Both the position numbers and the translations under genes were made by a program. Of a stretch of 40,515 nucleotides of DNA, positions 4,412 through 23,146 are shown piece after piece; the stretch's first letter is position 1; each line of letters opens with the position of its first letter. The notes below the pieces were generated by a model. It was not told the DNA's origin. It was given only the letters and a program-made list of their open reading frames with translations, and made no database searches. The stretch lies in IMG/VR virus record IMGVR_UViG_3300031825_000036, positions 1-40,515 of that record; one strand, written 5' to 3'. This DNA comes from a virus.

Positions 4412-5320
4412 TTAAGTCATTCCTTCGATTGTCAGGTTGCAGTCCGAGAACGTTGCGTACGGAATCGTGATGCTGAAGTCCTTGTAGAAACCGAAGATCG
4501 TGGTGATCGCCAGCGGCTCGTAGGCCACCCACAGGCACGGAGTGGCGCGCAGCGACGTCAGTCGGCGCTTCAGCGCATCGACCTCCGAATTGGGTACGGG
4601 CATGGCGAAGGTGAGCCGGTCGGCAAAGGCGCGCTGGTCCAGCACCGTGTCGCCCCACTGGTTGGTGTCCTTGCGGCTGTAGTCCTGGATGCCCGCTTCG
4701 GCACCGTAGTAGATGCCATCCCCCACCGTGAGCTGGTAGCCCATCATCAGCACGCCGCACCCGGCATTGCCGCTGTTGGCCGTCACGTCCACCTGCACGG
4801 AGGCGCTCGCATACGGCGGCACGTCCAGCGCGATCACCTGGTCCTTGTTCGACGTCGTGGCGAAGAAGTAGTCGAACCAGCTCGGCGCGGGAATCTCGCC
4901 CCTGAGGCTCGTGGTCTTGTCGTAGACCAAGCCCGCGGTCGGGTCGGTCATGCGGATGCGCACCGTGTCGGCCAGCAGGTTCAGCAGGGCCACGGCATTG
5001 ATCGCCTGGCCGGGCGCGACGGTGTAACTCATGCTGCCGGCCTTGGTCGTCTGGGTGCTGCGGCTGGTGTCGAACAGCTTCCAGCGGTTGGTCGGACTGA
5101 CTTCGATCCACCAGGCAGCATTGGCGACGAGCGTCGGGTCCTTGCCGAGGTTGTTCGCCTGCAGGCTTTCGTAGACCTTGTGCGTGGCCACGACGATCAC
5201 GCGCGCAGCCAGCGCATAGGTGGTACCGGCAGCCCACGCAGCGTAGTCGGCCTCGGGCACGTCGGTGGCCGACAGCATGGCGTCCGTGATAGTCAGTGGC
5301 TTGACGATGGCCAGGCTCAT
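4412..5320 (-). CDS. Tail protein following the tape measure (tip or hub candidate)
   Basis: This is a 302-aa protein. Residues about 25-62 (AAWAAGTTYALAARVIV...KVYESLQANNLGKDP) have the spaced Trp/Tyr pattern of small chitin/cellulose-binding-type modules often found on phage tails. The rest is beta-rich with no TM segment. Its ATG overlaps the tape-measure stop (ATGA at 5320-5317), so translation is coupled. Position directly after the tape measure is where distal-tail or tip proteins are encoded in siphophages, but I recognise no Dit or Tal family motif. The structural role is therefore inferred from position. Confidence 0.6.
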   Translation of the reverse strand: MSLAIVKPLTITDAMLSATDVPEADYAAWAAGTTYALAARVIVVATHKVYESLQANNLGKDPTLVANAAWWIEVSPTNRWKLFDTSRSTQTTKAGSMSYTVAPGQAINAVALLNLLADTVRIRMTDPTAGLVYDKTTSLRGEIPAPSWFDYFFATTSNKDQVIALDVPPYASASVQVDVTANSGNAGCGVLMMGYQLTVGDGIYYGAEAGIQDYSRKDTNQWGDTVLDQRAFADRLTFAMPVPNSEVDALKRRLTSLRATPCLWVAYEPLAITTIFGFYKDFSITIPYATFSDCNLTIEGMT

Positions 5321-8300
5321 ACCGTCCTCGTCTGCGGCATGCCGTCGAACTCCCAGCGCTCCAGCAGTTTGACCATGCGCTGATTGATCGTCACCTGGGC
5401 CCGCGCCTGTGCACGCGCTTCCGCCGTCTGCTGCTCCAGCACCTGCGCCATTCGTTGAAAGTCAAGCCCGTCGCGCCGATTCACGTCGGCGGGAACGATG
5501 CGCTCGCCGCGGTGGATGCGTGCGTTCATGTCGCCGGGAACGAAGTCGGTGCCGACGTCGAACGAGGGCAGGCCCATCGCCGCCGCCTCGCGGTTGGAGT
5601 ACCCGGCCGGCAGGCGCATCAGCGCGTCCAGGCTGTTGGCAGAGATGCCTTGCTCGATCGCCTTCGCGTAGATCGAGGCGCGGTCCCCGGCCGCTGCTTG
5701 CGCGTTCACCCAGGCACGCGCGGTGTCGGCGGTGTACTGGTCACCCGTGATGCCGCTGATGGTCAGGCCCGCTGCGTTCTGCAGGCCGATCGCGCCGCCA
5801 GTGGACTGCCACACCTTGCCCATCGGACTGTCGACCCACTGTTCGGTGGCGGCCACCTTCTTGCCTGCCGTGGCGGCTTCGCGGGCCAGTGCCAGCGCCA
5901 GGCGGTCGATCGCGTCGCGCACGCTGATCACGCTGGTGTCGATGCCGCGCAGCGCGTCGATCTGCTGGCGCGCAAATTGCAGCGTTTCGTCCAGCTGCTT
6001 GATCTGCTCCTTGGCGGCCTGCAGCTGCCGCTCGGCCACGGGGATGGCCTTGCCGGCAACGCCCTGCAGCTGCGACAGCTGGCCGGCCAGCACCAGCTGG
6101 TCGCGCTTCTGTTCGAACGCCGACGCGTAGTTGGCCGCGCCCATGCCGCCGCGCGCTGCGCCGATCGCGCCGGCCAGGTCGGCCTGGTCCGGCAGGTAGC
6201 CGGTGGCCAGGGCGGTAGACAGCGCCTGGTCGATGAACTGGCGGCCCGCAGCGGCGGCCATCTGGGCGGCCGCTTCGCCGTAGAGGCTGCCGATTTCGCT
6301 GCGCAGCATGTCGAAGATGCTGCGCAGCGCGCCCAGTTCTTCCTGCGCGACGCTGGCGGCAAGCTCGGCGCGCTCGCGCTCGGCGGCCGTGGCGCGCTCC
6401 AGCGCGGCGTAGGCGGCGTCCGTGGCACTGATCCATCCGTCGCGGGTGGACTGGATCGCGGCCGCTGCCTTTTCGGCCTCGGGGTGCAGCTCGGCGAAGG
6501 CGCGGGCGACGTCCAGGATCGCCTCCTGCGCGCCGGTGTTGCCGAGCGCCTCCATGCGCAGGTACAGCTGGCGCAGGTCCTCGCGCGTGGCGCCCAGGAT
6601 CTGCTCGGGGCTGAAGTCCATGCCCGCTTGCGACAGCCGCTGCTGAATCTCGCGTGCCCGGAAGGCGCGCAGCTGCTCCGCGTTGAGGTAGTCGGCCACG
6701 ACGTTGGAGAGCTTGCTGCGGATGCCGTCCAGGCGCTCGGCGGCCTTCTCGGCGGCGGCGGCGAGATCCTCCTGCGCGTAGATCTGATCGAGCAGCGCCC
6801 GGTTGCTTTCGTCGACCGCAGCCCGTTCTTGCTCGCGGGTGCGGGCGAGCTTCTCGGTCTGGCTGGCCGTGAGCTGGAACAGGCGCTCTTCGAGCTGCGC
6901 GCGCTGCTGCCTGGCTGCCGTGGCGCGGGCGGCTTCCTCGTTGACCTGCGCCAGGGCCTGGGTCAGCTCGTCGGCCGAGCGCTGCCCGACGTCGCCCAGC
7001 TGCTGCAGGATCTCGCCCACCTTGCCCGTCAGGTTGGCCTGCCGCAGCCCGCGCAGGATCGCCTCGGTGCTCATGGCGCCGATCGCCGCCGTCAATTCCT
7101 CCTGCGAGCGGCCCACGTCCCGATTGAGGTCGGTGAACTGCACCGCGCCGCCGCGGCTGGCGGTCACATCCAGGAAGGTCGGGCTGTCGCCCTTCGGATC
7201 GGCGCTGTAACCCAGGCCGAACGAGAGATCGCCTTGGCGGCCGAACGCCTGCAGGATGCCGCTGTACTGCGCCTGGATGGCCTGCGCGGCGGTGCGCGCT
7301 GCGCTGTCGGATTCGGTCGTGTGGTTGCCCGCACCGATGCCGGAATTCAGCAGCCCGAAACTGCCGTCGACCTTTGGACCGCCCCCCTTCTTGCCGAACA
7401 ACGAGTAGATCGCGGCGGCGCCCAGCGCGATCGGCCCGAGGGCGCCGAGCGCCATGCCCGCGCCTGACAAGGCGCCCGCGGTGGTGCCCGAGGTAAGCAA
7501 CGAACCGGCGGCACCCAAGGATCCGGAAAGACTCGTGGCACCCGTCAGCCAACCGGCGCCGGCCGCCAATGAGCCGCCAATACCACCGGCACCGAACACC
7601 GAACCCAGCGCGGAGCCGGTAGCAGAGCCGAGGATGCCGTTGGCTCCGCCAGCGCCCGCAGAGGAAGCACCCGTCAGCGCACTCGCCACCGCGCCGGAGA
7701 TCGGCTGCACGGCGGCCAGGATCGTGGGCTTGAGCACCAGGTTCTCGAAGATCGCCTGGGCCTTGCTGGCAGCGTCGCGCGTGCGACCTGTCAGCACGTC
7801 GTACAGGGTCTCGCCGACCTCGCGGTTGGTCGAGCTCCACCTGTCGATCCAGATCCGGGTGGCTACTTGCGCGCGGGCCTCGGCCGCACCGCGCTCTGCC
7901 TTGTCGACCAGCTCCTGCTGCTGCGCGGCCGTCAGGTTGCCTCCTTTGGCCGCGTTGCTGATCTTCTCCTTTTCCTTCAGCAGAGCGATGTCGATCTTGC
8001 GCAGCTCGATCAGCTTGCGCTGTTCGTCGGCGCTGCGGCCCATCAGGCCGATCTCGAAGTCGACCGCCTTGCCCTCCAGCGCGATGGCGTCGACGTACTG
8101 CTGCACCATCTGGGTGGCGGCGTTGTAGCGGTCCGCTGCAGCTTTCTCTGCCTGCGCCCACTCGTCCTTCCACTGGGCCACCTCGGCCGCCACTGCCTCG
8201 CGCGCCTTCTTGGCACGCTGGGCCTGCGTCGTTTCCACGTCCGAGATCGCCTTCTGCCTGCGGCCAGCGATCTTCTCCTCCAGGACTACGGCCTCGCCCT

Positions 8301-14035: not shown

Positions 14036-15535
14036 TTACACGACCACCGCCTTGGTGGCGCCCTTCTCGCCGTCGACCAGGACGGCGCCGCCGTAGATGT
14101 GGCGGATCTTGTAGGTCACCTTGTCGTTGCTGAACATCGAGCCCACGTTGGGCATGTCCTGCACGAACAGCTCGGGGTCTTCCTTGCCGTCCAGGAAGCC
14201 GATCTCGATCACCGGCAGCACGTTCTGGTCGCACACGGTGACCCAGTCGTTGGCGTCGGTCCAGTAGGCGACCGGGATCACTTCCGGATTGATGGTCTGT
14301 ACGAACGTCTTGTCCAGGTTCTGGCCGCGCACGAACAGGTTGTAGGCCGTCTCCTGCAGCTCGAACGGCACCAGCACCGAGCGCGGGCCCACGCCCAGGC
14401 GTTTGCCGCTGCCCGCGCGCACCTGCTTGACCATCGCCAGGCGGTGGGTGGCGAACTCGGCGGCCGACAGCGCAGCGGCGAACAGGTTGTTGTGGCCCGC
14501 GGCGAACAGCGCGACACCGTCGTGGATCAGCGGGTTGGTGCGGTAGAAGTCGAAGACGAACTCGTACAGCGTGTTCTTCGCCGCCAGGGCCAGCTCCAGC
14601 GGGATGCGGCGCAGCGCCTGGACGTCGTCGTTCTTGATCGTCTCCAGCGTCACGTCCTCGGTGCCGCCGCGCTTGGTCGCGGCATACGTGGCCTTGGCGT
14701 CGCCGGGGGAGGCGAGCGCCGCGTAGGCCGCACCCTGGGCCACCGCCGGCAGGTTGCCATAGCCGCCGATGCGCGTGCGCTCCTGCGTGCGGAAGTCGTT
14801 CACCGGACCCCAGATGGCCACCTTCTTCCAGGCGTCCAGGTCCGTCAGACCGGTGAAGATCGCCTGCATGCGCCGCGTCAGCGTGTTGCCCAGGGCATTG
14901 GCGAAGGTCGTGCTGTCGATCGACTCGGCGAAGTGGCCGAGCGATTCGCGCAGGCGGCTCTGGTCGCAGTTGGCGAACTGGCCGGTGACCAGGCGGTCGC
15001 CGGTGATCTCGATGTACGCCTCCTTGAACGAGCGCACGTCGCGATGGTTCGCATGCGCCGGGTCGAAGAACGCATCCAGCATGTCCTTGATCTGCACGCT
15101 GCGGTCGCCCACCTGGATCGAGCCGGCGCCGAACACCGGCACGCGCACCGCGCCGCTTTCGGTGAAGCGCGCCAGGTAGGCGGCCTCGCCCTGGATCGCC
15201 TTGTCGATGTCGGCCTCGACGAAGCGTTCCCGGCCGGCGAAGTCCGCCTGCAGGCGATCCTTGGCCGCCTGCGGCAGCTTGCTCGCGGAGATCCGCGCGC
15301 TGGCCGCCTGGCGCAACTGCAGCATCTGCAGCTCGCCGCGGGTGACCGGCGTGTTGTCGGCCTGCGCCTCGGTCAGGCGGGCGGAGCCCGGATCGGCCGG
15401 CACCAGCGGGCCGCACACGGCCTCGTGCAGCTTGACCAGGTCGTCGTCGCCGATCGTCTCGGCGTTGATGGTGGCGTGCTTGGCCGGATCCTTGGCCTTG
15501 ATGGCCTCCAGCATGCGTTGCTTCCACAGGGGCAT
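14036..15535 (-). CDS. Nested major capsid protein from an internal start
   Basis: Codon 306 of the fusion gene is an ATG (15535-15533) preceded by a perfect AAGGAG (15549-15544) with 8 nt spacing. Translation here would give a 499-aa protein beginning MPLWKQRMLEAIKAKD. This removes the whole protease part and leaves a helical scaffold-like segment (about 100 residues) plus the capsid fold. It would let the phage make hundreds of capsid subunits and few protease-bearing ones, comparable in logic to nested scaffold/protease genes such as Mu I/Z. Use of the start is inferred. Confidence 0.65.
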   Translation of the reverse strand: MPLWKQRMLEAIKAKDPAKHATINAETIGDDDLVKLHEAVCGPLVPADPGSARLTEAQADNTPVTRGELQMLQLRQAASARISASKLPQAAKDRLQADFAGRERFVEADIDKAIQGEAAYLARFTESGAVRVPVFGAGSIQVGDRSVQIKDMLDAFFDPAHANHRDVRSFKEAYIEITGDRLVTGQFANCDQSRLRESLGHFAESIDSTTFANALGNTLTRRMQAIFTGLTDLDAWKKVAIWGPVNDFRTQERTRIGGYGNLPAVAQGAAYAALASPGDAKATYAATKRGGTEDVTLETIKNDDVQALRRIPLELALAAKNTLYEFVFDFYRTNPLIHDGVALFAAGHNNLFAAALSAAEFATHRLAMVKQVRAGSGKRLGVGPRSVLVPFELQETAYNLFVRGQNLDKTFVQTINPEVIPVAYWTDANDWVTVCDQNVLPVIEIGFLDGKEDPELFVQDMPNVGSMFSNDKVTYKIRHIYGGAVLVDGEKGATKAVVV

Positions 15536-16450
15536 GGTCGTTTCTCCTTGAGTTTCGGCAGCGGCTTCGGTCAGGCGATCCAGGCCGCCGCCAGCGCCCG
15601 GCTCGACAATCAGGTCCACGGAGTTCACCTTGATGAACTTCGCCGCCTCGCGCAGGGTCTTGCCCTGCGTCTGGCGCTTCTTGGTGCGGGCTACCGCGTC
15701 GATCGACAGGCCCATGAGGCCCTGCATGCCGCGCCTGACGGCTTCGACCATCTTGGTGACGACGGCGTCGGCGGGGTCGATCGGGCGGAAGGTGCCCTGC
15801 AGCGTCCCCGTGTCGGCCGCCTTGCCCTCGACGAACTTCACGTCGTAGATGCCGCCGATCAGGTTGCGCACGTCCTTGCCTTCGCCCTTGATGTGCTGCG
15901 TGTCGCTCTTGGCGAATACCCGCACACCTTCGAAGAGCGGCACGGCCTCGCGCAGCGCCGCGTCCGGGTAGAAGTTGCCGTTGCCGCTGGCGCCGGCGCG
16001 GATCAGCGTGACCAGGATCGAGCCGTCCGCGGCTTCGACGAACACCTGGTCGCCGGGCTGCGCCTGGCGCATGGCCTCGGTCACCTTCGAAACCTTCTCG
16101 GCGGGCTGCCCCACCGGCACGAACTGGCCGACCACCTGCACCGCCTGGCCGAGGACCATCGTCTCGACGCCGTTGACGGCCTGCACGGTGTAGCCGTACT
16201 GCCAGTGCTTGCCGTCGAGCTCGATGACGATGCGGTCGGCGTACATCGCCTCGATCGAGACGTAGCGGCGCTCGCCCGGCATCTTGCCGGCGTTGACGAC
16301 CTGGTCGACGGCGCCGCGCGCCATGTCGATCAGGGCGCGGAAATCACGCTCCGGGGCGGCCTGGGCCTCGCGCATGTGGGCGTTGACCGCGTCCCGCCCC
16401 TGCAGGCCGCCGGCGGCGGCAAGGGCTGCGATCAGGAGTGCGAGCTTCAT
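14036..16450 (-). CDS. Prohead protease-major capsid fusion protein
   Basis: This 804-aa protein combines two functions usually on separate genes. Residues about 70-285 look like an S78/HK97-type prohead protease: His186 (DTQHIKGEG), a GLSI serine motif (Ser249) and the typical closing VNSVDLIVEPGAGGG. Residues about 306-804 look like a Mu gpT/HK97-type major capsid protein. The protease part would mature the procapsid and the capsid part builds the shell. The first 25 residues are hydrophobic (MKLALLIAALAAAGG). A strong in-frame start at 15535 could make the capsid portion alone. The ATG at 16450 overlaps no gene and has a GAGGGC sequence upstream. Catalytic residues are proposed by pattern. 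Confidence 0.8.
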   Translation of the reverse strand: MKLALLIAALAAAGGLQGRDAVNAHMREAQAAPERDFRALIDMARGAVDQVVNAGKMPGERRYVSIEAMYADRIVIELDGKHWQYGYTVQAVNGVETMVLGQAVQVVGQFVPVGQPAEKVSKVTEAMRQAQPGDQVFVEAADGSILVTLIRAGASGNGNFYPDAALREAVPLFEGVRVFAKSDTQHIKGEGKDVRNLIGGIYDVKFVEGKAADTGTLQGTFRPIDPADAVVTKMVEAVRRGMQGLMGLSIDAVARTKKRQTQGKTLREAAKFIKVNSVDLIVEPGAGGGLDRLTEAAAETQGETTMPLWKQRMLEAIKAKDPAKHATINAETIGDDDLVKLHEAVCGPLVPADPGSARLTEAQADNTPVTRGELQMLQLRQAASARISASKLPQAAKDRLQADFAGRERFVEADIDKAIQGEAAYLARFTESGAVRVPVFGAGSIQVGDRSVQIKDMLDAFFDPAHANHRDVRSFKEAYIEITGDRLVTGQFANCDQSRLRESLGHFAESIDSTTFANALGNTLTRRMQAIFTGLTDLDAWKKVAIWGPVNDFRTQERTRIGGYGNLPAVAQGAAYAALASPGDAKATYAATKRGGTEDVTLETIKNDDVQALRRIPLELALAAKNTLYEFVFDFYRTNPLIHDGVALFAAGHNNLFAAALSAAEFATHRLAMVKQVRAGSGKRLGVGPRSVLVPFELQETAYNLFVRGQNLDKTFVQTINPEVIPVAYWTDANDWVTVCDQNVLPVIEIGFLDGKEDPELFVQDMPNVGSMFSNDKVTYKIRHIYGGAVLVDGEKGATKAVVV

Positions 16451-16457
16451 GGCCCGA

Positions 16458-16724
16458 TCAGCCCTCGTCCTTGGAGCTGAACTTCTGGCCGTCCTTGGTC
16501 ACGACGACCACGTGCGTGCCGTAATCCTTGAACGCCAGCACTTCGGCCGCCGTGATCGGGACTTGCTTCTGCACGTCCTTGAAGACGTCGGCGCCCTGGC
16601 CGTCCTTGCCGGCCTTGACGCGCTCGGTGATCGTGCGGCTCACGCGCTTGGCGGCCTCGGCCGCGGTGAGTTCCTTCGTCGCGCCGGCGCCGGCGGCGGG
16701 CGGGGTCTGCGTGCTCTGGGTCAT
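16458..16724 (-). CDS. Small late protein at the head of late block 2, function unknown
   Basis: This 88-aa protein has an Ala/Thr-rich N-terminus, a helix (TAAEAAKRVSRTITERVKAG) and a C-terminal beta hairpin (GTHVVVVTKDGQKFSS). The ATG at 16724 follows AGGAG at good spacing. It ends 7 nt before the protease-capsid start and is probably its co-transcribed partner. It could be a head decoration or assembly factor; no family is recognised. Its upstream region holds a 14-bp palindrome and a leader hairpin. Confidence 0.75.
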   Translation of the reverse strand: MTQSTQTPPAAGAGATKELTAAEAAKRVSRTITERVKAGKDGQGADVFKDVQKQVPITAAEVLAFKDYGTHVVVVTKDGQKFSSKDEG

Positions 16725-18849: not shown

Positions 18850-19767
18850 TTAACTTTGCCGCATCCCGGCCCGTTTCGCGGCCTGGTCCAGCGCCGCTTT
18901 CCGGCCATCGAGCTGCAGCTCGCGATCGCTGAACGGCCTCGCCCCCGGCGTCGTCACCTCCCAGGTGGCGCGATAGGGTAGCGCCAGGCACCCGCAGTTG
19001 ATCACCTCGCCCACGGGCGCCTTGGGATCGTGCGGGTGCATCAGCCTCACCGGCCCCTCGTGACCCGGCAGCACGAACGGCTGGTCGACGTCCTGGATCT
19101 GGCCGTCGGCCGCGTCGTGGTTCCACCGGCTGTGGATCTTGCCGCTGCGCCGCCATTGCTTCTTCAAGCCCGGCACCAGCTGCGCGGCCTGCTCCAGGCG
19201 CCGGAAGCTGGCGATCGCGAAGGCGCGGCCCACCTCGGTGCGCACGATGGTGGTCGCCCGCTGGGCGCTCTCGGTGCCTAGGATCTGCTGCACCTGCTGG
19301 ATCGCCTTGAACGGCGTCGTCGATCCGATGGTGACCAGGCTCAGCTGGTTCCCGATCTTGCGGGTGGCCTCGCGCCCCACATCCTTCAGCCGCAGCACGG
19401 CGAACTGCCGCAGCTGTGCCAGCACGCCCGTGTCCAGCATGGGCAGCTGCAGCTCCACGTTGGTCCCGGCGGCCGACAACGGCTTGTCGACGAAATCCTC
19501 TCCCTGCTGCCAGGCCTGCCGCAGGCCGGCGTCGACCGCCGCGCCGGCCTGGCCGGCGGCACCCTCCAGGATCGCCTGCAGCTGCTGCAGCAGCTGCGTC
19601 AGATGCCAGCGCTCCCAGTCGGCCGGTTGCGCCGCCAGCGTCCGCAGGATCTGCTCGCGGGCGTCCTTCAGGAGGCCGATCACCTTCTGGTCGGTCGCCA
19701 GGATGGTGCCGGCACGCTCATGCAGTCGCTGGCGCAGCGCCGCTTCAAACGCTTGCCGTGGCGTCAT
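18850..19767 (-). CDS. MuF-type minor head morphogenesis protein
   Basis: This 305-aa protein has a helical first half and a C-terminal MuF domain. That domain has the pattern WRRSGKIHSRWNHDAADGQ, then FVLPGHEGPVRLMHPHDP and the closing NCGCLALPY, equivalent to the conserved Trp-His-DG...PHDP...NCRC motif. Mu gpF-like proteins attach to the portal inside the procapsid. The ATG at 19767 gives a 23-nt overlap with the portal gene. It is the last gene of late block 1; the cargo island follows. Confidence 0.87.
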   Translation of the reverse strand: MTPRQAFEAALRQRLHERAGTILATDQKVIGLLKDAREQILRTLAAQPADWERWHLTQLLQQLQAILEGAAGQAGAAVDAGLRQAWQQGEDFVDKPLSAAGTNVELQLPMLDTGVLAQLRQFAVLRLKDVGREATRKIGNQLSLVTIGSTTPFKAIQQVQQILGTESAQRATTIVRTEVGRAFAIASFRRLEQAAQLVPGLKKQWRRSGKIHSRWNHDAADGQIQDVDQPFVLPGHEGPVRLMHPHDPKAPVGEVINCGCLALPYRATWEVTTPGARPFSDRELQLDGRKAALDQAAKRAGMRQS

Positions 19768-21259
19768 CGCGTGCCGGTGCGGCCTTGCCGTCCTTGAGCG
19801 CCTGGCGCAGATCCTCGGGCAGGTTGAAGCTGTCCTGCGCCGCCTTCTCCTTCTGGCGCCGCGCGCCTTCGGCACGGGCTTTCTCCAGCTCCGCGGCCGC
19901 GTCGATCTCCTGGCCGAAGCGGCTGGCGATATCCGCGATCAGCTGCAGGCCGCGCTCCTGGGTGAGCAGGTTGTTGTCGATCAGCAGGATCACGGCCGTG
20001 GCCACCTGGCTCATGGCCGCGGCGAACTTGGTCAGATCCTTGCTCACCAGTTCGGGGAAGACGGCCGTCACCTTCCACTTCTCGTCGCTCCAGTCGGGCT
20101 TGCCAGCGTCGACGGCCTTCCACAGCACGAAGCGGCCGATCTCCTCGAGCATCAGCTTGAGCATGCTCTGGCGGGCGGTGTACACCTTGAACGTGGGCTC
20201 ACCCATCTCGCTGGCGGCCGCCCGGTTCACGTCGCCGCCGCCACCGAACCAGTGTTCCGGCACTGTGGCGCCGCCCAGAACGTGGTTGCGCAGCAGCCGG
20301 GCGCTTTCGCTCGTATCGGCGGCCTGCAGCTCCGGGGCCACCGCCTTCAGCTCCACGCTGTCGTTGTGGACGAACTTGCTGTTGGGAGCCGGCGCCTTGA
20401 AGTCCTTGTCGAACTGCTTGACCTTGCCGTCGTCGGCACCCGTGAGCTTCACGTCCCACACGAAGCTGCGCAGGTAGGAGATCCGGTCGATCTCGTCGAA
20501 CAGGAACCCGTCATAGGCGTCCAGCCAGTCCATCTGGCCCAGCAGGTCGCTGCGCCCGCGGCTGCCGTCCGGGAACTTGTTCACCTGGTACAGCAGGCAT
20601 TCGCCGTCGGTGAAGTCCTCGGCGCGGATCTGCGCCGTGCGCTGCGTGAACAGCTCGGCGTCGTCGCCCAGCACCACGACGCGGTACTTCCAGTACCGGC
20701 CCTTGTCGTCGCGTTTCGTCACCACGCCGATCGGCTGCTCCGGGTTGTCCGGGTCCATGACCACACTGCCGATCTGGCGCGGATCCAGGTAGCCCAGGCG
20801 CACGAACCCGCTGGCCTCGTTCACGTGGGCGATGTAGCACTGCTCACCGAGCAGGCCCAGGGCGCGCACGCGCGGCGTGAGCTTCAGCGGCCAGTTGTTG
20901 ATCGGGTCATTCCAAAAGGCGTCCAGCAGCTTCTGGTGCTCCGTATCCTTGCACTGCAGCCGCACGCCCTCGGCCAGCAGGTACGCCAGCGGCAGCTCCG
21001 TGAGGCGGTTGGCCAGCAGGTTGCTCTGCCACAGCCACTCGGCCAGCTTCGCCATCCGGTCCTGCGCCATCGGCGTCAAGTCGCGGGCGTTCTGCCTGGT
21101 CAGGCCGTCGCCGGTCAGGCGCGTCCAACCAGGCTCGTCCACGCTCTGGCTGCCGGCGGCTTCCACCATCCGCTGCTCGCCGCCCGTCGCGGGAGCGTCA
21201 ACCACCTGACTGAAACCGATCGCCTGCAGCAGGCGCCCGAACACGCTTTCCTTCTTCAT
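19745..21259 (-). CDS. Portal protein
   Basis: This 504-aa protein is encoded directly after the large terminase and before MuF. The order terminase-portal-MuF is standard for Mu-type and SPP1-type phages. WLWQSNLLANRLTELPLAYLLAEGV, the LGYLDPRQIGSVVMDPDNPEQP region and the C-terminal helix SQVATAVILLIDNNLLTQERGLQLIADIA fit the portal crown/wing and clip-stem layout. Twelve subunits would form the DNA entry ring at one capsid vertex. The ATG at 21259 follows GAGGAG and overlaps the terminase stop (ATGA). Confidence 0.88.
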   Translation of the reverse strand: MKKESVFGRLLQAIGFSQVVDAPATGGEQRMVEAAGSQSVDEPGWTRLTGDGLTRQNARDLTPMAQDRMAKLAEWLWQSNLLANRLTELPLAYLLAEGVRLQCKDTEHQKLLDAFWNDPINNWPLKLTPRVRALGLLGEQCYIAHVNEASGFVRLGYLDPRQIGSVVMDPDNPEQPIGVVTKRDDKGRYWKYRVVVLGDDAELFTQRTAQIRAEDFTDGECLLYQVNKFPDGSRGRSDLLGQMDWLDAYDGFLFDEIDRISYLRSFVWDVKLTGADDGKVKQFDKDFKAPAPNSKFVHNDSVELKAVAPELQAADTSESARLLRNHVLGGATVPEHWFGGGGDVNRAAASEMGEPTFKVYTARQSMLKLMLEEIGRFVLWKAVDAGKPDWSDEKWKVTAVFPELVSKDLTKFAAAMSQVATAVILLIDNNLLTQERGLQLIADIASRFGQEIDAAAELEKARAEGARRQKEKAAQDSFNLPEDLRQALKDGKAAPARDDATASV

Positions 21260-22926
21260 GCGCCTACTCCTCTGAACATGCGGCTGGCCTGCCGCCCATA
21301 GCGGGCGCGGGCGCTCGCTTCCTCTTCGCCGCCGCTTTGCGCCGCGGCCGCCAGACCGCCCGTGACGCACAGCATCCACAGCATGCAGACCATGTCGGGC
21401 CCGTCGTCGTGGTCGGCCTTCGGGAAGTGCTTGAACTGGTCCACCAGCGTCGTCTGGCTGGAATGCAGCCGGATCAGCCCGTTGTGCATGTGCGGCTGCA
21501 GGGCCTCGATCCGCATCAGCTTGTCCAGGATGGGCACCAGCATGCGGATCGGGAGTGGCACGCCGGCCTGGGCGCTGCGTTTGAGCAGCTCGGTGGCCAG
21601 GAACTCCTGAAACTGCACGGTCTCCACGCCCCAGACCAGGCAGTTGTACTCGCGCTGCACTTCGATGATGTCGCTGATGATCCGGTCGGGCACGCGCTTG
21701 CGGATCTTGGCCTCGACGACGTCGAGCACGCCCGTCTCGCGGTTGAAGCCGCCCACGCCAATCGCGCTGGGGTCCCGGCCGGCGCCGGCCTTGCCCAAGG
21801 AGGGGTCGCACGCGCCGTAGAAGATCCAGTCCGCCAGCCGGTTGACCCAGAAGCGAATCGAGTTGACGAAGGGAGCCTCCTCGCCGCTGGTTGGGTCGTT
21901 CTGCTGTTCGCTGTCGAACGCGTCGTGCCCCTCGCGCGCACGCTTGACCATCAGCTTGGCCAGTGGCCGCACTGCCGGCCAGCTGACCACCGCGCCGCGG
22001 TCCATGTCAGCCTGGTGCTCCTGGTACAGGGCCATCGCCGCCGCCAGGCCAGCCTGGGGCGTGTCCGCGTTGAGCAGCAGTCCCTCGAACTGCTCCCAAA
22101 GGTCCATGCGTTCGGGCCACTGGATGACCGCCCGCAGCACCTTGCGGTTCCACAGCGGGTTGCGTAGGAACCGCGCCAGGACGCTGTCGTAGTGCAGCAC
22201 CGTGCCCACCAGGATCGCGTCCATGCTGTCGTCCGGCGGGCCGAGGTTCAGCACGCCCTTGGTGACGAACTTCTCCAGCTTGTCACGCTGCGCCGGCGTC
22301 ATGACGTTCTCATCGTTCTCGATGTCGTCCATGACGGCCAGGTCGGGCCGGTGCGGGCCGTGCCGGCGGCCGCGGATCTTCTTGGCGCTGCCGAAGGCCT
22401 CCACCTTGCGGCCGTTGGCTGTAACGATCACCCCCGCGCGCCACACCTTGCCCTGGCCGCACGCTTCCGGGAAGTCGCCCTGCAGGCGCGGGTTCGCCTC
22501 CAGTTCCGCCTTGATCGCCTCCAGCATCTCGGCGGCCTGCTCGAAGGCGTCCATGACGATGATCGGGTACCACTTGATGCCCTTGATCACGCACCACAGC
22601 ACGAAGATCAGGCTGATCTTTGTCGACTTCGCTTCGCCCCGAGGCGCGGCGATTGCGTCCCGCTCGCCGTTGGGCGAGTTGACGATCTGCGGCAGCCGCT
22701 GGTGCAGGTACTTGTGAAGCTCGCTCGGCTCGGCCTTGCCGTAGTGCGGGAAGTAGGTGCGGTCGAAGTACTCGAAGCCGGTGACGTCGTCGAAGACCCG
22801 CCGGCGGCGCTCCGCCACCGCGCCGGGCGAGAGGTCCCAGCCGTCCAGGTCGGCGTCGATCTGCCGGCGCAGGCTCTCGGCAAGGGCCGCCAAGCCGTCG
22901 AGGAACTCTTTCTTGTTCTTAGCCAT
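21256..22926 (-). CDS. Terminase large subunit
   Basis: This 556-aa protein is the DNA-packaging motor. The ATPase half has the Walker A-like APRGEAKST (about 94-102) and Walker B PDLAVMDDIE (194-203). The nuclease half has the metal-binding acidic residues in GACDPSLGKAGAGRDPS (Asp374, Asp385). In Mu-type phages it packages by headful from a site near one end and carries host DNA with it. The ATG at 22926 is chosen because MAKNKKEFLDG begins the conserved region; the predicted ribosome-binding site is weak, so translation may depend on the overlapping zinc-ribbon gene. Confidence 0.93.
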   Translation of the reverse strand: MAKNKKEFLDGLAALAESLRRQIDADLDGWDLSPGAVAERRRRVFDDVTGFEYFDRTYFPHYGKAEPSELHKYLHQRLPQIVNSPNGERDAIAAPRGEAKSTKISLIFVLWCVIKGIKWYPIIVMDAFEQAAEMLEAIKAELEANPRLQGDFPEACGQGKVWRAGVIVTANGRKVEAFGSAKKIRGRRHGPHRPDLAVMDDIENDENVMTPAQRDKLEKFVTKGVLNLGPPDDSMDAILVGTVLHYDSVLARFLRNPLWNRKVLRAVIQWPERMDLWEQFEGLLLNADTPQAGLAAAMALYQEHQADMDRGAVVSWPAVRPLAKLMVKRAREGHDAFDSEQQNDPTSGEEAPFVNSIRFWVNRLADWIFYGACDPSLGKAGAGRDPSAIGVGGFNRETGVLDVVEAKIRKRVPDRIISDIIEVQREYNCLVWGVETVQFQEFLATELLKRSAQAGVPLPIRMLVPILDKLMRIEALQPHMHNGLIRLHSSQTTLVDQFKHFPKADHDDGPDMVCMLWMLCVTGGLAAAAQSGGEEEASARARYGRQASRMFRGVGA

Positions 22927-23146
22927 GCGATCGCCCGGCGAAGTACGCTGCACGCGTCTTGCCGAAGTGCACCTCTGCGCATTCGAGGCAGAAGTAACAC
23001 TCGCAGTACAGGCACTTGAAGAGGAACCGAATTGGAGCGCACAGGCCACAGCCGCAAGTGACCTTCGGCTGCTCGCCCTTGTCCTCGCGATGCTGACGGT
23101 CACGCAGGTCGCGCGTTTCGGGCGCAAGAGCCTCCAGATAGTTCAT
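22919..23146 (-). CDS. Small cysteine-rich zinc-ribbon protein
   Basis: This 75-aa protein has a dense cysteine cluster: VTCGCGLCAPIRFLFKCLYCECYFCLECAEVHFG, enough for one or two zinc sites. It lies between the DUF1804-like gene and the large terminase and overlaps the terminase start by 8 nt. The ATG at 23146 is preferred; a GTG at 23152 overlapping the upstream stop is an alternative. It may bind DNA or the terminase during packaging, but there is no direct evidence. Confidence 0.72.
   Translation of the reverse strand: MNYLEALAPETRDLRDRQHREDKGEQPKVTCGCGLCAPIRFLFKCLYCECYFCLECAEVHFGKTRAAYFAGRSHG

Follow-up and report, generated by a model that had tools for sequence, protein, structure and literature searches.

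The window, the whole 40,515-base IMG/VR virus record analysed here, carries on its minus strand an open reading frame of 804 codons (14036-16450; ATG at 16450-16448, stop at 14038-14036) that joins a maturation protease, a scaffold-like region and a major capsid protein (MCP), and that is a single frame in nearly all relatives covering it. The portal protein (19745-21811, minus strand; phrog_10963, 2.5e-61), the terminase large subunit (21256-23127, minus strand; phrog_38, 2.7e-124; TIGR01630) and a tape-measure protein are also encoded on the minus strand, which identifies the region as a tailed-phage head module to which the portal gene and the fusion gene both belong. The window protein shows near full-length homology to PHROG family phrog_29592 (E 2.7e-193, residues 26-804). 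An 88-residue reading frame on the same strand (16458-16724) stops shortly before the fusion gene's first ATG, and a 111-residue frame overlapping it gave no family match in the libraries searched. A sequence-only reading of this locus had placed a prohead protease and a major capsid protein in one 804-residue frame, and profile and fold matches confirm both domains.

The maturation-protease domain occupies residues ~139-293 (15572-16036, minus strand). The N-terminal part matches the head maturation protease family phrog_15531 (E 4.5e-10), and among the invariant columns of the domain are His186 and Ser249 (in GLSID), with the motif SVDLIVEPGAGG also conserved. A separate model of the N-terminal 305 residues (mean pLDDT 82.8) matches viral capsid maturation, prohead and XkdF proteases in Foldseek comparisons (E 3e-11 to 1e-5), while no solved structure matched it at E below 0.001. 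The N-terminal half has no match among Pfam or NCBIfam profiles and a PDB sequence search gave nothing useful, so that it is PHROGs and fold comparison that recognise the catalytic domain. With this fold match of the model and a candidate catalytic Ser and His, the domain is assigned as a putative S78/XkdF-type (assemblin-like) capsid maturation protease. Residues 1-106 (16133-16450, minus strand) form a further, confidently modelled domain in front of the protease, a helix with β-strands at 65-106, which belongs to no known family and lies in the long product only.

The protease is followed by a linker of variable length (residues 295-305; 15536-15568, minus strand; pLDDT below 50), a helical region (residues 306-432; 15155-15535, minus strand; AlphaFold2 helices at 308-427) whose position suggests a scaffold or delta-like function, and a second low-confidence linker (residues 433-447; 15110-15154, minus strand; pLDDT below 50), the candidate site of maturation cleavage or N-arm. 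The HK97-fold MCP comprises residues 448-804 (14039-15109, minus strand), with residues 509-800 matching Pfam PF25209 (Phage_capsid_4, 7.7e-37). In Foldseek comparisons the modelled C-terminal part matches phage capsids of the HK97 fold in the PDB, HK97 itself among them, and encapsulins; the full-length model has moderate overall confidence (pTM 0.45).

The first linker carries an internal ribosome-binding site. The Shine-Dalgarno (SD) sequence AAGGAG lies at 15549-15544 and is followed at a distance of 8 nt by an in-frame ATG, codon 306, at 15535-15533 (all minus strand), confirming the earlier claim of a nested 499-residue frame (14036-15535, minus strand) whose translation is predicted from the conserved start. 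AAGGAG by itself is not rare, occurring 17 times on the minus strand of the 40.5 kb. The SD dG is -8.5 at the internal start versus -6.4 at the first ATG (16448-16450), which has GAGGG 11 nt upstream and whose exact position is less certain than that of the internal start. A sigma-70 scan of 15300-16700 found no promoter for a nested gene, though phage promoters may differ from sigma-70. With its start placed where the 295-305 linker ends, the nested protein would begin at a domain boundary and contain the complete scaffold and capsid regions. It would not be the plain capsid subunit that had been supposed: about 125-145 helical scaffold-like residues precede the capsid fold, a stretch that resembles the HK97 delta domain.

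Conservation of this site was assessed in 80 fetched IMG/VR relatives, which have single fused frames except for one frameshifted gene (L056) and fragments at contig ends. Of 81 aligned sequences, 79 have an ATG at the position of codon 306; the other two come from contigs that are cut short, and in one of them (L073) the ATG can be recognised by eye. Within a non-redundant set of 53 sequences under 90% identical, an SD core (AGGA, GGAG or GAGG at -18 to -4) precedes the aligned ATG in 51, as against 97 of 789 other in-frame ATGs of the same genes (Fisher p 9e-40). When the genes are recoded synonymously at their own codon usage, 29.2±2.6 of the 53 carry an SD core, with a maximum of 37; shared ancestry among the relatives means that these counts are not independent events. 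Both controls, the synonymous recoding and the other ATGs, lead us to reject a chance SD sequence. The motif occurs in two codon registers and encodes differing peptides (QGET, NPKEE, EGS, QEDE), indicating that the nucleotides are kept rather than the peptide, and in nearly all relatives an ATG (or GTG) stands 4-11 nt behind it. SD and start are retained at 45-78% protein identity. The start region also has less mRNA structure than other parts of the gene (mean z +1.67, p 3e-10) and less than its synonymous recodings (mean z +1.62, p 2e-8).

A scan of GTDB species genomes added 74 loci, mostly from Comamonadaceae and other Proteobacteria, with two from actinobacteria. The SD core is present in 64 of the 68 bacterial-genome loci that have an ATG near the aligned place. 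In four relatives (L383, L419, L433 from Nonomuraea and L436 from Planobispora), two of them actinobacteria, GTG replaces ATG behind the SD; exchange of one start codon for another with a change of the encoded amino acid is what selection on initiation predicts. The comparison across relatives shows that the second start is, at the level of sequence, under selection as a start, and it strongly supports the proposal that this start can yield the capsid part without the protease. Two bacterial loci are arranged differently. On a Rhodospirillaceae MAG (L429:2707-4026) a capsid homologue from residue ~454 onwards continues the frame of a ParB-like N-terminal stretch and the protease domain is not seen, which may reflect rearrangement of a Mu-like element or faulty assembly. 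A Rhodocyclaceae contig carries, about 200 bases behind the fused gene (L386:2857-5013), a further copy of the capsid part that lacks the protease (5223-6317), a tandem capsid duplication.

Were only the full-length protein made, every subunit would carry a protease that is cut off later in the manner of the HK97 delta domain, and the internal ATG and SD would be a coincidence or a relic left by an earlier fusion of genes. The single long open frame in almost every relative is compatible with such a course, as is the tolerance of HK97-type heads for a 1:1 scaffold:capsid fusion (PMC10275583). A relic would decay, yet SD and start persist at the divergence given above, through changes of register, ATG-to-GTG swaps and with reduced mRNA structure, and the same nested start recurs in several fusion groups (below); we regard exclusive synthesis of the full-length form as unlikely. 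Across the family the mean SD dG is -6.9 at the internal start versus -6.4 at the best first-start candidate, the internal site being stronger in 30 of 50, a comparison that gives no long:short ratio because the best of several N-terminal candidates was taken for the first start. As the internal SD is not much stronger than that of the first start, SD strength by itself does not lead one to expect the short form in large excess.

Fusion of protease and capsid is by itself known and not new. The two proteins had been described as usually separate, a generalisation that does not hold up well, since two named NCBIfam families cover such fusions and published papers note such genes. The fusions of NF045540 (ClpP-like) and NF045541, for example those of Pseudomonas phages F10 and MD8, of Gifsy-2 and of Rhodobacter RcC phages, have the same protease, scaffold-like and capsid order in one frame as the window protein, and share its nested start. 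The window gene is of this kind, with a maturation protease and an HK97-fold MCP in one uninterrupted frame, but its protein scores below the family cut-offs (NF045541, 124.9 bits against 525; NF045540, 120.5 bits against 475) with only residues 452-791 aligned, and its family is thus a distant branch of the protease/capsid fusion proteins. In the parts of the publications seen, gp5 of Pseudomonas phage MD8 is described as protease, scaffold and MCP (PMC8508860), and fused protease-capsid genes are described in Rhodobacter RcC phages (PMC8601537) and in Arthrobacter phages of clusters AM, AU and AN (PMC5513430); the same parts describe one product, and no internal start was found in them. No report of an internal start in protease-capsid fusions was found in the open-access literature, although an earlier one may exist in a subscription journal. 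The pieces are known, and their combination seems undescribed in open-access literature.

The proteins of F10, Gifsy-2, S1, RcOceanus, Pd_22F, PY223 and LPPA33 exceed the NF045540/NF045541 cut-offs. In each of seven named fusion phages the protease domain is followed closely by an SD-like stretch and an ATG, and the same holds for E. coli phage mEp213, whose gene F857_gp05 has its nested ATG at codon 211 behind GAGGA. Among fused non-redundant members, an SD is present at the aligned ATG in 12/12 of the F10/ClpP-type group (synonymous null mean 6.9), 33/37 of the S1 group (null mean 21.4), 27/30 of the RcOceanus group (null mean 12.9) and 8/8 of the Pd_22F group, where the null mean is 4.7 and the null maximum also 8. 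Since the ClpP-type protease and the other fusion proteases have unrelated folds, the nested-start arrangement recurs with different proteases. Members of the S1 group that lack the SD or the aligned ATG are L196, L199, L200, L202, L203, L204, L206, L231, L233 and L244. Four of these (L199, L202, L206 and L233) have no SD core at the junction ATG and are A-rich upstream (e.g. agaacaaaataaaATG), resembling sequences of hosts that do not rely on SD. Elsewhere in the S1 group, L225 has a frame of 1227 residues in which about 540 extra residues stand in front of the fused gene, perhaps through an additional join to the portal gene. L321, of the RcOceanus group, has a capsid frame of 464 residues closed shortly behind the conserved junction start, and its gene may be split or frameshifted at the junction.

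The comparison with related phages for split or fused genes, which had been suggested as a check, finds the fused form in nearly all and split forms in distant relatives, within the Pd_22F group. Here one clade (L332, L337-L355 and L364) has separate protease and capsid genes. Its protease frame is ~210-245 residues long and stops directly at the capsid ATG or a few bases from it, so that the tail of the protease gene abuts or overlaps the capsid start, and in most split members a strong SD for the capsid gene lies inside the last codons of the protease gene (e.g. L337, cctacttggagggaaaaaataATG, dG -10.4). In the tree all split sequences form a single clade inside the fused ones, rooted at the midpoint only; if this root is right, the topology fits breakage of a fused gene at the junction with the capsid start ready for use. 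The scaffold N-terminus aligns poorly in this clade, and the split start therefore coincides with the fused junction only within some tens of residues.

These split relatives bear on two further alternatives. Their existence could suggest that the fusion is an assembly or frame-error artefact and that the genes are really separate, but the same fused frame is found in ~80 IMG/VR and ~70 bacterial genome contigs from different sources, which makes such an error exceedingly improbable. The frame-error artefact is rejected on the fused frame in about 150 contigs. The SD-like stretch might instead aid translation in some way other than initiation, for example through a ribosomal pause that lets the protease fold before the capsid is made. 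On one view SD-like codons make ribosomes pause, and the stretch sits exactly at the domain boundary. A pause would not call for a start codon at a constant distance, yet the motif is followed 4-11 nt on by ATG or GTG in nearly all relatives, the start site is kept unstructured, and the equivalent site in the split relatives is a true gene start; we consider this role very unlikely.

Nested products behind a viral protease have precedents. The annotation of phage lambda C/Nu3 has, like the window, an in-frame nested start behind the protease domain, giving a protease-scaffold and the scaffold alone. Lambda encodes its capsid protein E separately, whereas the nested product of the window includes the capsid protein. 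The annotation places lambda C among the S49 family peptidases, and the window protease is of another fold. The annotated nu3 start, scored as a positive control, has a weak SD (-2.7), so a nested start need not stand out by this score. The herpesvirus UL26/UL26.5 pair (assemblin protease-scaffold) likewise contains a nested 3' co-terminal gene, and the form with the protease makes up a minor share, ~10%, of the scaffold in herpes simplex virus (PMC12474303); unlike the window product, the herpesvirus short form comes from its own gene inside UL26 and is without capsid protein. HK97 gp4 and gp5 (delta domain and MCP) present the same order of protease, scaffold domain and HK97-fold capsid, but as separate adjacent genes, with gp5 starting 3 nt after the last base of gp4, so that the HK97 protease is not part of the capsid polypeptide. 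The feature expected of a nested two-product gene of the C/Nu3 and UL26/UL26.5 type, a conserved in-frame internal start with a ribosome-binding site behind the protease, is present in the window family.

The reading we favor, with a probability of roughly 0.84, is that of a dual-start head gene that would supply mostly a scaffold-capsid protein and, in smaller amount, a protease-scaffold-capsid protein. Ribosomes starting at the first ATG would make the 804-residue protease-scaffold-MCP, while those starting in the flexible linker at codon 306, behind AAGGAG, would make the 499-residue scaffold-MCP from the same mRNA. Because the scaffold and capsid domains are common to both, the two products would be expected to join one procapsid, the long form bringing in a limited amount of covalently attached protease. 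Once the procapsid has assembled, the protease would cut itself and the scaffold free at the linker near residues 433-447, leaving the mature capsid protein. The presence and strength of two start sites are what is seen; we infer the long:short ratio with its minority dose of the long form, co-assembly and the position of the cleavage site.

Extended beyond this family, the proposal becomes a general rule, which we hold to be somewhat favored, that tailed-phage protease-capsid fusion genes, across several groups whose proteases have unrelated folds, encode two products by way of a nested start for the scaffold-capsid form. Annotation of a single product poses the puzzle of a shell of hundreds of subunits with a protease on each, to which the conserved nested start offers an answer. 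If the rule is true, evolution has repeatedly delivered the protease in covalent attachment to a minor fraction of the capsid protein; retroviruses deliver their protease likewise, with Gag-Pol. The nested start is conserved across hundreds of related viruses, and the entry for the main capsid precursor is predicted to be missing in hundreds of annotated phages. The split relatives show how fused and separate head genes can interconvert with the capsid start staying in use, and the protease dose per procapsid would be tunable and testable through one start site.
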